64,000 bases of DNA from an uncultured Thermotogae bacterium. Lineage in GTDB: Bacteria; Thermotogota; Thermotogae; Mesoaciditogales; Mesoaciditogaceae. The notes below the pieces were generated by a model that was given only the letters and a program-made list of their open reading frames with translations, searched no databases and was not told the DNA's origin. The first letter of the stretch is position 1, and the number at the start of each line of letters is the position of its first letter. The DNA is taken from assembly GCA_913056255.1 (NCBI GenBank), contig CAJXLN010000004.1:1-64000 (forward strand), given 5' to 3'. The translations under genes and the position numbers were made by a program. Positions 32,930 through 55,423 of this stretch are shown here, piece by piece.

Positions 32930-33934
32930 TCAACCCATCCCTGCATTTCGATACAACGATTCGATCTTTTCAGCCATTTTTACAAACACTTTAACGAGTT
33001 TAGGATCGAATTGAGTGCCTGAATTTTTCACAATTTCATCCATAGCATCGACAACAAGCTTTGCTTTTTTGTAAGGCCTCTTACTGACAATTGCATCAAA
33101 AGAGTCAGCTATGGTGACTATTCGGGCTTCCATAGGGATGTTTTCACCCTTAAGCCCTTTAGGATAGCCACTTCCATCGTATTTCTCGTGATGATAAAGA
33201 GCAATTTTTTGCGCATGCTTTAATATCTCGACTTTACTTTCAAGTACACGTGCACCTATTTCGGTATGAGTTTTCATGATCTTCCACTCGTCATCATCCA
33301 GGGGCCCATTTTTGAAGAGTATTGCATCTGGAATTCCGATCTTTCCTATATCGTGAAGAGGAGCCGTGAGACGCATTTCCATAGTCTCTTGAGGTGACAT
33401 GCCCAATTCCTCAGCGAACATCTCGGAAATTTTTCCCACTCTTTGAGTGTGATCAGCCGTTTCATTGTCTCGAATGCTGGCAATATCTCCTAATTTTTCT
33501 AAGAGCTCAAAGGATAATATCTCGTTCTCTCTCATTATTTTGATCATGTTGCTTACCCGTTTGTGAAGCTCGTCGAGTCTTCCAGGACTGTAGGTTTTTT
33601 TTATTTTTAACGCGGTTACTAAGGAATACAGAATGGTTTTGAATTCTTCTGGATCTATTGGCATAATCATCACTTCATCCGCTCCGGAGTTCAAAACCTC
33701 TTCTTTGACTCTCTCACTTTTGTAAGAAAGCACTGCGATCAGCAAGGAGCTTTCATTCTTTTTTCGAATCTTTTTGATTTTTTCTAAGTCTTTTTCATCA
33801 TGAATTCCAACTAAGGCAATGTCCACATTGGAAAAGTCTTCCGGAAGTGGAAAGATCTCCGCTCCAGAATCCTTTAAAGATGAAAGCAAGATATTTTCCA
33901 CAAAATCATCATTTAATGAAACGAAAATTTTCAC
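32930..33934 (-). CDS. HD-GYP protein with a degenerate receiver domain
   Basis: The C-terminal half (about 155-330) is an HD-GYP phosphodiesterase domain with DHTQRV, HDIGKIGIPD and HHEKYDGSGYP, expected to hydrolyse cyclic di-GMP. The N-terminal 115 residues have a receiver fold. However, the acceptor aspartate position reads LVGIH and the conserved lysine position reads MIMPID, so normal phosphorylation is unlikely. It lies downstream of the ornithine genes with a 47-base gap and may be read through from them. Bases 32738-32929 upstream of pepC hold no gene. Confidence 0.88.
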   Translation of the reverse strand: MKIFVSLNDDFVENILLSSLKDSGAEIFPLPEDFSNVDIALVGIHDEKDLEKIKKIRKKNESSLLIAVLSYKSERVKEEVLNSGADEVMIMPIDPEEFKTILYSLVTALKIKKTYSPGRLDELHKRVSNMIKIMRENEILSFELLEKLGDIASIRDNETADHTQRVGKISEMFAEELGMSPQETMEMRLTAPLHDIGKIGIPDAILFKNGPLDDDEWKIMKTHTEIGARVLESKVEILKHAQKIALYHHEKYDGSGYPKGLKGENIPMEARIVTIADSFDAIVSKRPYKKAKLVVDAMDEIVKNSGTQFDPKLVKVFVKMAEKIESLYRNAGMG

Positions 33935-46736: not shown

Positions 46737-49700
46737 TCAGAACATAGAAAATCCGAAACTACCCGTCACCGGATCAAAAGAAACGAACTTCTCTGGAAAT
46801 GCCGTTATGTAAAGCGTGAACGCGAATTTTGAAAATTTGAATCCTCCTATCGTGGAGAAAACCATCGATCCTCTCAATCCCATACAATCCCAGAGCTTTA
46901 AGAAATTCAAGGTCGTAGATTGCAATTGCCCGTTTGAATAGCTTCCCTTTGAAGACAAGCCAATGCCAAGAGCCTTTAAATTTCCAGATGCGCTGAAATT
47001 GAGATTACTTATTGAAAGATCTTGAGATTTTATAGTGAATTCTGTTGACAGCTTGAAATTTGAGAGAAACAACAAATTCTTGAGAGATGCGGTGAATTTG
47101 TTCGAGATATCTGAAAACTCTTTGGAATTGTAGTCATACAGCGTTTCGGCATGATAGGCAAAACCGGACCATTTCGAATCGAGAGAGTATTTTGTGTTCA
47201 CGAGCTTAGGAAGCTTAGGAGATGGTTCTATTATCGTACTTGTATTTAGAGCATTTTTAATGGTAAAAATGCTGAAATTCGATGAAGTGGTAAGCACCAT
47301 ATTTGACCATGGATGTGTCGAATTGTTGAAATCGTATGAAAACTTTGATGCGGCACTCAGCGGAATAATTGGGAATTTGTATTTCAGAGAGAATGCAACG
47401 TTGTTTTGATAGTTGTGCGTATCGAAATTCGAAATGTTTTTTCCTCCAACTTGTATAAAGGTTTGAAGTGCGGAAATATTAAGTCCAAGCAAATTATAAG
47501 ATAAATTCGTCTTCAATATTGAGGCAATTCTGTTAGAAATCGATACATTTCCACTTTCGGTTTTGAACCCTGTTTTCGCACCATACGACAAATTTAACCC
47601 CAATCCAAAGAATTTGGTGCTCAATGAACTGAAATTATAACTCGCATCTGTAAAAGTCGAGTATTTCAAAGGTTGATTAGATGAAAAAGACATATTTCCA
47701 GAGTAAACACCTGTAATGGATTTTAAAGTAAAAAATCTCAAGGGCCATGAGAATTTTCCAGAAATGGAATTGGCATTTGAAAAATCACCTGAAGGTAACG
47801 AAAAATTACCATTTCCATTCACTTTACCCGTTAACTTCAGTGGACCAAGCGATGCTCTAAAATCATTTATACTGTAAGGAATATTGTATTTTTGCACACC
47901 ATTCGATACGGATTGAATGGCTTTTAAAGCAAGAGCACCACCCAAGGCAGGACCTGAAAGAGAAAGAACGGAATCCTGTTTGTTGGATTTCACATCGTTT
48001 TGATAGTTGAAAGACAATTTGTATGATTTAAAGAGAGTTCCCGAGGTTCCAAACTTGACAATTTCACTTGATTTAGACCCATTTTCTGAAGAGTTAGAAT
48101 ACGAAAGAGAAAAGGGCAATCCAAACAACTTTCCTGCAAGATCAAATCCTTGATTTAAGGGACCTTTTTGATAAGAATCGAAATGCACATCTCCGTTCAG
48201 AGAATCACTTGGAGAAAAGTTGAATTTTACAGCTGTGTACCAGCCTTCACTGGCCGAATAGTTGAAAGAAACCTCCATGGGTTGCTTGCCACCTGTCAAT
48301 GAGTAGTAATACTGAGGCAAATACATAACAGGTATTCCAAATATGTACATCACCACATTGTAAGCGATCAAATGATCACCTGGAACGATGTAAATCTCGG
48401 AAGATTCCACTTTGTAATGCGGAGGACTTGCCGTACATGTGGTTATGTAGCCGGGTTTTATAACGCTTGTTCCAGATTTTGTATCGTAGAATGTCTTATT
48501 TCCCCTGAAATACACATTTTTTTTAACTCCTTTTGCATTCTTAACTTTGACAGTCCCGCGAATACTCTCAACAAGAGCCACTTGTTTTTGAAAATCAACC
48601 GTCATTTTCGAGGAAAATATCTTTCTCTTTTCTTGGGTGTAAACGACATTTCCTACGAAAACCGCTTGCGTAACGTGACCTTTTTCATCAAGAAAGATAC
48701 TGGCTTCCGATGCACTTACACTGTAATTGAAAGATTTGATCGTAACTCCTCCGGTATAAACCACTTCAGTGGCTGAGAGAGTTTTCAACTGTCCAGCGGT
48801 AACCGTAAGTAACTGAGAGCTGAAAGCCCGACTTGATATTCCCAGAACGAATATGACTAAAAATATTGGCATGATTCTGATCATGATTTCTTTTATCTTA
48901 AACATCAAGCGACTGTCCAAAAGCAAAAAGAAAAGTACCCCAACAAGGGCGAAAATCAAATCAGGAAGCCATGAAGCTAAGATCGGTTTGATCATTCCGT
49001 TCTCTCCCATAGCATTCAGCCAAGCGCTTGAACCTTGATAAAGAACCACCAGAATGAAAGTTATTATCACGCCCCAAGACTTGCTCTTTATTCCAAAAAA
49101 CAGTGAGAACGGAACCCCAAAGAACGCGATGATAAAAGCTCCCAATGCATTGGCAAAACGTGAGTACAACTCAACTTCAAAAGTTCTTGGATTAAGTCCC
49201 AATTTCTTGAAAAGATTTATTCGATCCCTCAACTCTTGTGTACTCATGGCTTCAGGTGGTTTTTGCGAACGAATGTATTTAATGACTTCTTCCGTTATAT
49301 TCAGTTTCATGGTGTTAAAAGACATGTCAAAATTCATCAAGCCGTTTTTAAGGGTGTAGGTTCTTCCGTCTTTTAGATACCAATTTCCGTTTTTGATATA
49401 CGCACTCTTTGCGTATACAACGCTGATGTTATTGCCGGATATGCGGTACATGAGAACTGTGCTGAATCTTTCCGTTTTCGGATCGAATTCCTTCACATAA
49501 AAATAATTGTTGTTTGCCTTGAAAAATGTGTTCGTTTCCACTTTTGGCAGTGAAGAATGCCACACATTTTTCGCCTCATACTCTTTCGCCCTTGTAGTAA
49601 AATTCGGAACCACGTAATTCTCGATCAGGTATGTACCAAATGCCAGAATTATCCCCATTATTAAAAAGGGAATTACGATCTTTTTCAAATTTATACCGTG

Positions 49701-49973
49701 AACTTGAAATGCCATGAGTTCGTGTCGAGTCGAAAAATTCGACAATACCCAAAAGATCGCAAGTAAAGTACCAACTGGAATTCCCATCACGACGAATTTC
49801 GGAAGATAATAATAGATCAAAACAAAAAGTTCCCAAAATCCAACGTGATTTTGTATTATGATGTTCGATATCTGATACAACAATTCAACGCTTACGAAAA
49901 TTATAAAACCTATCAGTCCAATGAAAAACGGCATAACGAATTCTTTGGACACGTATTTATAGAGAGTCTTCAA
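46737..49973 (-). CDS. LptF/LptG permease fused to an LptA/LptD-like outer-membrane part
   Basis: This is a 1078-residue single frame. Residues 1-358 match an LptF/LptG permease with six membrane helices and a periplasmic domain. Residues 364-385 form one further hydrophobic segment, like an internal signal. Residues 395-490 resemble the LptA/OstA beta-jellyroll (SEASIFLDEKGHVTQAVFVG). Residues 505-555 carry TTCTASPPHYK and PGDHLIAYNV, close to LptD. The rest is glycine- and serine-rich beta-strand sequence ending in Phe, as for a barrel. In LPS bacteria these are separate proteins of one bridge. TTG 49973 follows GGAGG by eight bases. Confidence 0.85.
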   Translation of the reverse strand: MKTLYKYVSKEFVMPFFIGLIGFIIFVSVELLYQISNIIIQNHVGFWELFVLIYYYLPKFVVMGIPVGTLLAIFWVLSNFSTRHELMAFQVHGINLKKIVIPFLIMGIILAFGTYLIENYVVPNFTTRAKEYEAKNVWHSSLPKVETNTFFKANNNYFYVKEFDPKTERFSTVLMYRISGNNISVVYAKSAYIKNGNWYLKDGRTYTLKNGLMNFDMSFNTMKLNITEEVIKYIRSQKPPEAMSTQELRDRINLFKKLGLNPRTFEVELYSRFANALGAFIIAFFGVPFSLFFGIKSKSWGVIITFILVVLYQGSSAWLNAMGENGMIKPILASWLPDLIFALVGVLFFLLLDSRLMFKIKEIMIRIMPIFLVIFVLGISSRAFSSQLLTVTAGQLKTLSATEVVYTGGVTIKSFNYSVSASEASIFLDEKGHVTQAVFVGNVVYTQEKRKIFSSKMTVDFQKQVALVESIRGTVKVKNAKGVKKNVYFRGNKTFYDTKSGTSVIKPGYITTCTASPPHYKVESSEIYIVPGDHLIAYNVVMYIFGIPVMYLPQYYYSLTGGKQPMEVSFNYSASEGWYTAVKFNFSPSDSLNGDVHFDSYQKGPLNQGFDLAGKLFGLPFSLSYSNSSENGSKSSEIVKFGTSGTLFKSYKLSFNYQNDVKSNKQDSVLSLSGPALGGALALKAIQSVSNGVQKYNIPYSINDFRASLGPLKLTGKVNGNGNFSLPSGDFSNANSISGKFSWPLRFFTLKSITGVYSGNMSFSSNQPLKYSTFTDASYNFSSLSTKFFGLGLNLSYGAKTGFKTESGNVSISNRIASILKTNLSYNLLGLNISALQTFIQVGGKNISNFDTHNYQNNVAFSLKYKFPIIPLSAASKFSYDFNNSTHPWSNMVLTTSSNFSIFTIKNALNTSTIIEPSPKLPKLVNTKYSLDSKWSGFAYHAETLYDYNSKEFSDISNKFTASLKNLLFLSNFKLSTEFTIKSQDLSISNLNFSASGNLKALGIGLSSKGSYSNGQLQSTTLNFLKLWDCMGLRGSMVFSTIGGFKFSKFAFTLYITAFPEKFVSFDPVTGSFGFSMF

Positions 49974-51757: not shown

Positions 51758-53661
<1,904 letters not shown>

Positions 53662-53684: not shown

Positions 53685-53711
53685 TTAGCACTCAAACACT
53701 TAGTCTGCTAA
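53685..53711 (-). promoter_or_regulatory. CIRCE operator of groESL
   Basis: TTAGCACTC, a nine-base spacer and GTCTGCTAA match the CIRCE consensus. The second half differs from GAGTGCTAA at two positions. CIRCE is bound by the heat-shock repressor HrcA. It overlaps the predicted transcription start and lies 24 bases before the groS ATG. Confidence 0.85.
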
Positions 53712-53844: not shown

Positions 53845-54222
53845 ATTTTTCCACAGTCAAAAAAGTCTGTATTCATATGGGTTTGTATGAGTTTTCCACA
53901 TTCCTCCAAAAAGTTTTCCACAATCAATTGTGGAAAACTCCGGAAAGCCGCATGAAACTTACAAAAAACGATTGTGGAAAACTTTTTGTCACCTTTTTTC
54001 AGATTTTACAGGGCTTAAGAGATGTTTTTAACGGGACTGGAAAAAAGTTTTCCACATTTTCCACAACGAAAAATTCTTTTCAAAAGTTTTCCACAAGTTT
54101 TCCACAAGTTTTCCACAATCAAAAAAACCATTAACCACGGTGCTTTACATGAGTTTTCCACATTTTCCACAATACCTACTACTACTAAATACTTAAATAC
54201 TTATAGTAATATTAGTAGAAAC
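53845..54222. other. oriC: Probable chromosomal replication origin (oriC)
   Basis: Twelve exact TTTTCCACA boxes, one base from the standard DnaA box TTATCCACA, lie here. On + they start at 53847, 53892, 53914, 54048, 54057, 54087, 54098, 54109, 54154 and 54163; on - they occupy 53929-53937 and 53973-53981. Three are spaced exactly 11 bases apart. The last is followed at about 54173 by TACCTACTACTACTAAATAC and an AT-rich tract, like a DnaA-trio unwinding site. Genes on both sides point away. An AT-rich inverted repeat (AATCAAA and TTTGATT, 53793-53820) lies just outside. No protein gene is credible here. Confidence 0.85.
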
Positions 54223-54317
54223 CGTTCAACGTTTTCAGTTTAAAATTTTTAGATGGTCATTGAAAAGAATAAGGGAGAATTTTCGAGTCAAATGAAAAAA
54301 CGGAGGTGATTTCTAAA

Positions 54318-54944
54318 TTGATCTACGCTATTGGAGATATACACGGATGCGAAGGCTCCTTGAAAAAACTCATGGAAAAGTGCTCTCCACAAAATGCAGA
54401 TACAGTGATTTTCCTTGGAGATTACATAGACAGGGGTCCTAACTCAAAAGAAGTTATAGAATTCCTGATCGATTTTTTTAAAATGCATCCCAACACGGTT
54501 TTTCTAAAGGGAAATCATGAATGGATGTTCTACGAATTTTACAAAAATCGCGATCCTGATATGTGGAATCTATGGGAAATAAACGGTGCAAGAGCAACTT
54601 TAAAAAGCTATGGAAACGTAGAAAACATACCGAAAGAACACGTGGAATTCATCAAAAGAACAAAGACGTATCACATTCAAGATGGGTACTTCTTCGTACA
54701 TGCAGGAGTAAAACCTGGAAAACCTTTAAAAGAGCAGAAAAGCGAAGATATGTTGTGGATAAGAGATGAATTCATATACTCTGATAATCCATTGGAGAAC
54801 CATATCGTCGTCTTCGGACACACTCCAATGGAAAAACCACTTATAATGAGTGATAAAATCGGTGTAGACACCGGTTGTATTTATGGCGGATATCTCACGT
54901 GTATTCGCTTAGAGGACAAGAAAATATTCCAAGAGAGGTGTTGA
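54318..54944 (+). CDS. Calcineurin-like Ser/Thr protein phosphatase (PPP family)
   Basis: The roughly 208-residue metallophosphatase has the full PPP motif set: GDIHG (residues 6-10), GDYIDRG, GNHE, HAGV and GHTPM. Such small bacterial PPP enzymes dephosphorylate proteins or diadenosine polyphosphates; the substrate is not decided by sequence. TTG 54318 is chosen because AGGTGAT lies seven bases upstream; GTG 54306 would touch the ribosome site. It is the first gene to the right of the origin. Confidence 0.88.
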   Translation: MIYAIGDIHGCEGSLKKLMEKCSPQNADTVIFLGDYIDRGPNSKEVIEFLIDFFKMHPNTVFLKGNHEWMFYEFYKNRDPDMWNLWEINGARATLKSYGNVENIPKEHVEFIKRTKTYHIQDGYFFVHAGVKPGKPLKEQKSEDMLWIRDEFIYSDNPLENHIVVFGHTPMEKPLIMSDKIGVDTGCIYGGYLTCIRLEDKKIFQERC

Positions 54945-54946
54945 GA

Positions 54947-55423
54947 TTGAAAGCCATATACCCCGGATCATTTGATCCCATAACGTACGGTCATATTGAC
55001 ATTTTTGAAAGAGCATCAAAAATCTTCGACCACGTGACAATCCTTTTGATGAACAACCCAAGAAAAAGGCCATTATTTTCCATAGATGAGCGACTTGAAA
55101 TGATAAAAGAATCAACGAAGGAATTCAAAAATGTCGATGTCAAGGTTCATACGGGGTTACTTGTTCAATATGTCAAGTCGAGCTCAATAAAAATAGTCAT
55201 AAGAGGACTAAGGGCATTGGAAGATTTCGAATACGAATTCGAAATGGCACTCACAAACAGGCAGATGTGTCCAGAGCTCGAAGTGGTATATCTCATGACG
55301 GACCTGAAATATCTTTTCGTATCTTCTTCAATGGTGAAAGAAATAGCGCAATTTGGAGGTGAACTGAGCAAATGGGCACCTCCCTTTGTCGAAAAAGAGC
55401 TTCAGAGGAAATTCCGCCGTTGA
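54947..55423 (+). CDS. coaD: Phosphopantetheine adenylyltransferase
   Basis: CoaD makes dephospho-CoA from phosphopantetheine and ATP. The 158-residue length is standard. AIYPGSFDPITYGHIDI (residues 3-19) holds the TxGH nucleotidyl-transfer motif, and VSSSMVKEIA the second ATP site. TTG 54947 follows AGGTG and lies two bases after the phosphatase stop; the longer frame starts inside that gene. It overlaps ddl. Confidence 0.95.
   Translation: MKAIYPGSFDPITYGHIDIFERASKIFDHVTILLMNNPRKRPLFSIDERLEMIKESTKEFKNVDVKVHTGLLVQYVKSSSIKIVIRGLRALEDFEYEFEMALTNRQMCPELEVVYLMTDLKYLFVSSSMVKEIAQFGGELSKWAPPFVEKELQRKFRR

Follow-up and report, generated by a model that had tools for sequence, protein, structure and literature searches.

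The gene-free stretch that separates groES from the gene of an ApaH-like phosphatase in the window, that is, the whole 64,000-nucleotide stretch of DNA analyzed here, almost certainly marks the place where chromosome replication begins in an uncultured Thermotogota bacterium, and its plan is ordinary. We hold it very probable that positions 53847-54218 constitute the chromosomal oriC, on whose 12 boxes DnaA would assemble and whose minus-strand DnaA-trios would be opened, with the box set representing a replaced family code. Two details go beyond the known plan, namely that each strand carries a trio array and that the whole box set differs by one letter from those of the sister genera. The preliminary description of this DNA proposed a new origin architecture for the phylum; as worded this did not hold, since the plan is that of Thermotoga maritima (PMC10316083) and Bacillus subtilis (PMC6669920), and novelty is retained for these two details only.

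Identification of the DnaA box cluster

Twelve exact copies of TTTTCCACA, ten forward and two reverse, were found at 53847-54171. On the plus strand they occupy 53847-53855 (box 1, with an orthologous box in all eight of the relatives aligned), 53892-53900 (box 2), 53914-53922 (box 3), 54048-54056 (box 6), 54057-54065 (box 7, which abuts box 6 directly), 54087-54095 (box 8), 54098-54106 and 54109-54117 (boxes 9 and 10, each at an 11-bp step), 54154-54162 (box 11, the first of a tandem pair beside the trios) and 54163-54171 (box 12, ending 4 bp before the first trio), while the inverted boxes 4 and 5 lie on the minus strand at 53929-53937 and 53973-53981. Boxes 2 to 12 are defined by exact match together with the alignment of relatives. 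The start-to-start spacings are 45, 22, 15, 44, 75, 9, 30, 11, 11, 45 and 9. Twelve identical 9-mers, ten in one direction, in fewer than 330 gene-free bases of 53845-54222 and with steps of 9 and 11 bases, had been described from the letters alone, and all of this was confirmed: the span is 325 bp, and no credible gene was found in the gap between the groES start (about 53661, minus strand) and the phosphatase start (about 54318, plus strand). The TAG repeats at 54176-54218 were absent from that description.

The density had also been called far beyond chance, and rightly so. The window holds 17 copies of TTTTCCACA against 1.40 expected, 12 of them within 325 bp, while 100 dinucleotide shuffles of the whole window gave a mean of 1.4 and at most 6 copies; no 9-mer unrelated to the box exceeded 4 copies per 325 bp. 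Across the whole 1.63-Mb assembly, all same-strand box pairs no more than 30 bp apart fall in the groES-phosphatase gap, and no second box cluster was found elsewhere. The box is one base off TTATCCACA, yet lies fully within TTWTNCACA, the usual DnaA-box consensus (quoted in PMC5043019), and is the common, established box of cyanobacteria (PMC4674748); the box itself is therefore not new.

On the left the cluster is flanked by groES (53395-53661, minus strand; NF011106, TIGR02348 (groES/groEL)) and, beyond it, groEL (51758-53428, minus strand), and on the right by the ApaH/PrpE-like metallophosphatase gene (54318-54944, plus strand) followed by coaD (54947-55423, plus strand). A sequence match to a CIRCE-like operator of groES, TTAGCACTC-N9-GTCTGCTAA, which we take to be of the HrcA/CIRCE type, lies at 53685-53711, outside the origin, and marks its left boundary. 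It stands about 135 bp from box 1 and is kept in all family genomes aligned, so that heat-shock transcription would depart from the edge of the origin. Further to the left, 46737-49973 on the minus strand encodes a 1078-aa protein whose N-terminal third matches LptG/LptF permease, with a weak LptD match behind; in a phylum whose cells bear a toga, this may be an export protein that arose by fusion.

Position of the cluster in the genome and its conservation

The assembly is a metagenome-assembled genome of 54 contigs with 89% completeness, and skew was therefore drawn per contig. On the 83-kb contig the cumulative GC-skew minimum falls at 54200 and not elsewhere, in agreement with the origin proposed earlier, and the purine minimum falls at 54250. 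On the corresponding contig of the same-genus genome (G002:C84) the minima lie at 33884 (GC) and 33876 (purine), about 20 bp from its last box. Gene orientation switches at the cluster: coding bases to its left amount to 41.5 kb on the minus and 8.0 kb on the plus strand (84% minus, 41.5 of 49.5 kb), and those to its right to 23.1 kb on the plus and 4.5 kb on the minus strand (84% plus, 23.1 of 27.6 kb).

A local GC minimum was found near the orthologous cluster in five of the six sister-genus genomes, G008 being counted for a local minimum only. In the stretches covered of G005, G006, G007 and G009, the lowest point is at most about 350 bp away from the cluster. The exceptions among the relatives are G004, in which no skew minimum was found at the orthologous cluster, and G008, in which the minimum coincides with the cluster only in the 100-kb stretch around it; over 200-620 kb of that genome it lies at 284 kb, away from the cluster at 516 kb. 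The box positions are conserved while the spacers drift, spacer identity to the window's genome being 52-69% in the relatives aligned, and groES, groEL and coaD are conserved together with the cluster in four genera. Skew minimum, strand switch, conserved boxes, trios and an intact dnaA thus agree on the candidate origin.

Structure of the putative unwinding element

The sequence beside box 12 is AT-rich (78% A+T in 54172-54222). Four TAG DnaA-trios begin 4 bp past the box with the correct polarity, forming a first array at 54176-54187 that reads 5'-TAGTAGTAGTAG-3' on the minus strand (CTACTACTACTA on the plus strand), with its 3' end towards box 12. The element thus holds more than the three trios that a basal unwinding system (BUS) has, as a minimum, no more than 16 bp from a box (PMC8287927), on the correct strand, and at least three TAG repeats, as in an origin of the T. 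maritima type. This array is the sole one of its kind on the minus strand of the 64 kb. After 16 AT-rich bases, the core of the putative unwinding element (54188-54203), a second array follows on the plus strand, TAGTAATATTAGTAG at 54204-54218 (TAG-TAA-TAT-TAG-TAG), which faces the first. It is identical in G002, where 17 bases around it are unchanged, whereas the spacers are only 69% identical.

Both strands of 1.14 Mb of family DNA were searched for arrays of at least four in-phase trios, at least three of them TAG, for which a first-order random model gives an expectation of 0.02 per 64 kb. Eight arrays were recovered, all inside these origins. In G004, G005 and G007 an inverted box lies 4-5 nt past the second array, which gives a mirror image of box, trios, AT-rich stretch, trios and box; CTA trios start 4 nt past the first box, and TAG trios beyond the AT-rich stretch end 4-5 nt short of the inverted box (L163:14040-14110 in G004, L165:2751-2815 in G005 and L166:15550-15900 in G007). 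The window and G002 keep the second array alone, with no inverted box within 16 bp beyond it, and genus g2 has neither the second array nor the inverted box. Judged from sequence, the two arrays may act as unwinding modules on both strands.

The initiator protein

The genome encodes one cognate DnaA (P0002, contig G000:C8), above the family cut-off and with an intact reading frame. Its gene is not on the origin contig; in T. maritima, too, dnaA is presumably not adjacent to oriC. Its best match among solved structures is 2z4r, which we take to be T. maritima DnaA. No convincing DnaA boxes were found in the dnaA promoter, where a switch of boxes lying outside oriC would have been visible. DciA is encoded in the genome, and a DnaD family protein was not found in this 89% complete assembly. 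The contig G051:C1 carries ten DnaA-like AAA+ matches, mostly frames of 242 or 248 aa scattered over the chromosome, which resemble IstB-type ATPases that assist insertion elements and not extra DnaA.

L398/I and M410/V are the only helix-turn-helix positions at which the window's genus, represented by three DnaA sequences, consistently departs from the genera with TTTTCAACA boxes. M410 aligns with E. coli L438, which is listed among the base-contacting positions of DnaA (PMC5043019), and is the only reported base-contact position that separates the window's genus, the others having V. Altogether 25 DnaA positions separate the two groups, so that with about eight contact positions the match at M410 may be due to chance, and a tie between M410 and the box letter is only a lead. 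The recognition helix reads RDHS in the window's family and RSHP in the f2 and f11 genomes, the latter representing T. maritima in this comparison.

Box sequences in related genera and families

Orthologous loci in the relatives were located via the phosphatase gene. In G002 eight boxes match TTTTCCACA exactly and others are degenerate. The seven genomes of g2, g3 and g4, which belong to the same family, show 10-13 boxes in matching places, every one of them TTTTCAACA. Position 6 of the box differs from the window's genome in 84 of 84 orthologous comparisons, whereas agreement at the remaining eight positions ranges from 69 to 84 of the 84 (82-100%) and that of the spacers of these genera is 52-63%. 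None of the origins in nine genomes mixes the two letters among its exact boxes. The box sequence appears to be a family code replaced as a set, TTTTCCACA here and TTTTCAACA in the sister genera.

In a tree of DnaA domains I-III, phosphatase and GroEL, all branches of which have at least 98% bootstrap support, g2 splits first and the window's genus is sister to g3 plus g4. One A-to-C replacement in the window's genus is then the shortest account, as an ancestral C would need two C-to-A changes, and this direction of the switch is favored. The preliminary description left two possibilities, that the box had changed or that the lineage had kept the general bacterial type; the latter is the less likely, since the use of TTTTCAACA by the sister genera suggests that TTTTCCACA was re-acquired.

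Genomes of family f2 carry clusters of TT(A/T)TCTACCAC and those of f11 clusters of (A)CCTACCAC. On a 5'-anchored alignment to the 9-mer, which is our own reading, these longer boxes have T at position 6. The f2 clusters are origin-like, with boxes in two facing groups (L156:9200-9560, L158:9830-10260, L157 and L159), and no skew minimum was found at the cluster in the L157-L159 stretches. Sampled skew and repeat clusters revealed no origin in families f9 (G021) and f10 (G038), nor was one found in G001, whose phosphatase fragment starts a contig. A search for pairs of the broad pattern TTTTCNAC over 61 genomes was discarded as too noisy, and genome-wide counts of TTTTCCACA and TTTTCAACA in ten family genomes were dropped as a sign of sites outside oriC because the coding background dominates.

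Comparison with known origins

The origin of T. maritima (tma-oriC; Ozaki 2006, PMC10316083), a member of the same class, likewise combines DnaA boxes in mixed orientations with an adjoining AT-rich element with TAG repeats, of which the TAG eTrio is essential. It has five boxes of ACCTACCAC, whereas the cluster described here has twelve of TTTTCCACA. None of the T. maritima 9-, 10- or 12-mer boxes, including ACCTACCAC, occurs in the window, and the earlier statement that the two boxes differ stands; other families of the class keep T. maritima-like types. The box found here shows that the one of T. maritima is not representative of the entire class, and the recognition helices differ in the same comparison. 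In the B. subtilis BUS (PMC6669920, PMC8287927) a short gap likewise separates tandem boxes from 3'-GAT-5' trios, which lie on the strand to which DnaA should bind. Unlike that system, the window has a second array on the opposite strand, and its genome has DciA with no DnaD family protein found. B. subtilis uses the DnaD family for the opposite strand. Cyanobacterial origins (Synechococcus, Anabaena, Cyanothece; PMC4674748) have the identical box in an unrelated lineage, but they adjoin dnaN, whereas the origin described here adjoins groES. The box of Mollicutes, TT(A/T)TC(C/A)ACA (PMC3322544), allows C or A at position 6, where the genera compared here also differ; in Mollicutes this is an ambiguity in a consensus, whereas in the present family every origin has a single letter throughout.

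Alternative explanations

A cluster of DnaA boxes need not be an origin. E. coli has DnaA-box clusters without origin function, and the boxes described here lie upstream of groES beside a CIRCE-like operator, so that a datA- or DARS-like titration or regulatory site, or a control region of groESL with the true origin elsewhere, has some appeal. We consider it very improbable, because the skew minimum and the gene-strand switch fall exactly at the cluster, the trios are of the unwinding-element type and the assembly offers no second cluster. Iterons or partition sites of an integrated mobile element, which resemble the cluster in being short tandem repeats in one direction, are more improbable still, to the point of being negligible: the repeat matches the DnaA-box consensus, the housekeeping flanks are conserved with it in four genera and a rep gene near the cluster is absent in all relatives.

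The two novel details leave more room. The one-letter difference might reflect homogenization of the repeats by gene conversion within the array, tolerated by DnaA with no change of specificity. Domain IV is nearly unchanged, M410 (E. coli L438) against V being the only difference among reported contacts (PMC5043019), and Mollicutes boxes accept either letter (PMC3322544), which implies that a small change of DnaA, or none, may suffice. This account is possible but rather unlikely, as boxes in both orientations, with diverged spacers between them, changed together, and a tolerant DnaA would be expected to leave mixed boxes, which no origin in the nine genomes has. For the facing TAG arrays, there is a substantial chance, somewhat short of even, that they form an inverted repeat that acts as a cruciform or as another protein's site and not a second DnaA-trio. 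As a single strand, the mirror arrangement of G005 gives a good fold (z -4.6 against shuffles) and may act there as a cruciform, but the element of the window folds no better than shuffles (z -0.7), the array keeps a three-base phase, and in G004, G005 and G007 the inverted box stands at the 4-5 nt spacing of the first module.

Proposed mechanism and implications

Under the reading as oriC, DnaA (P0002) would bind the 12 boxes via domain IV. The tandem boxes 11 and 12 would seed a DnaA-ATP oligomer running onto the TAG trios of the minus strand (54176-54187), as in B. subtilis, and the oligomer would open the AT-rich stretch beyond them, with the duplex opening towards 54218, while the distal boxes 1-10 would raise the local DnaA concentration. 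Helicase would be loaded afterwards, probably with DciA. The second array could conceivably let DnaA hold the plus strand and guide a second helicase. A fuller version, with two facing unwinding modules, one per strand and each with a helicase, and a whole code flipped from A to C at position 6, perhaps together with V to M at DnaA position 410, is offered tentatively and is rather doubtful as a whole.

It is an unsolved question of evolution how an initiator and a dozen essential sites can switch specificity in concert while the cell survives. The sister genera present two origin states, one letter apart, at the same locus and with closely related DnaAs, which makes the switch directly testable. 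How, at bacterial origins, a second helicase gets onto the opposite strand has been stated as unknown (PMC10201434, PMC10721633), and an origin in which both strands carry trio arrays, completed by mirror boxes in three relatives, is a natural test case for this question. Origin-opening repeats on both strands may thus help to explain how two replication forks are started.
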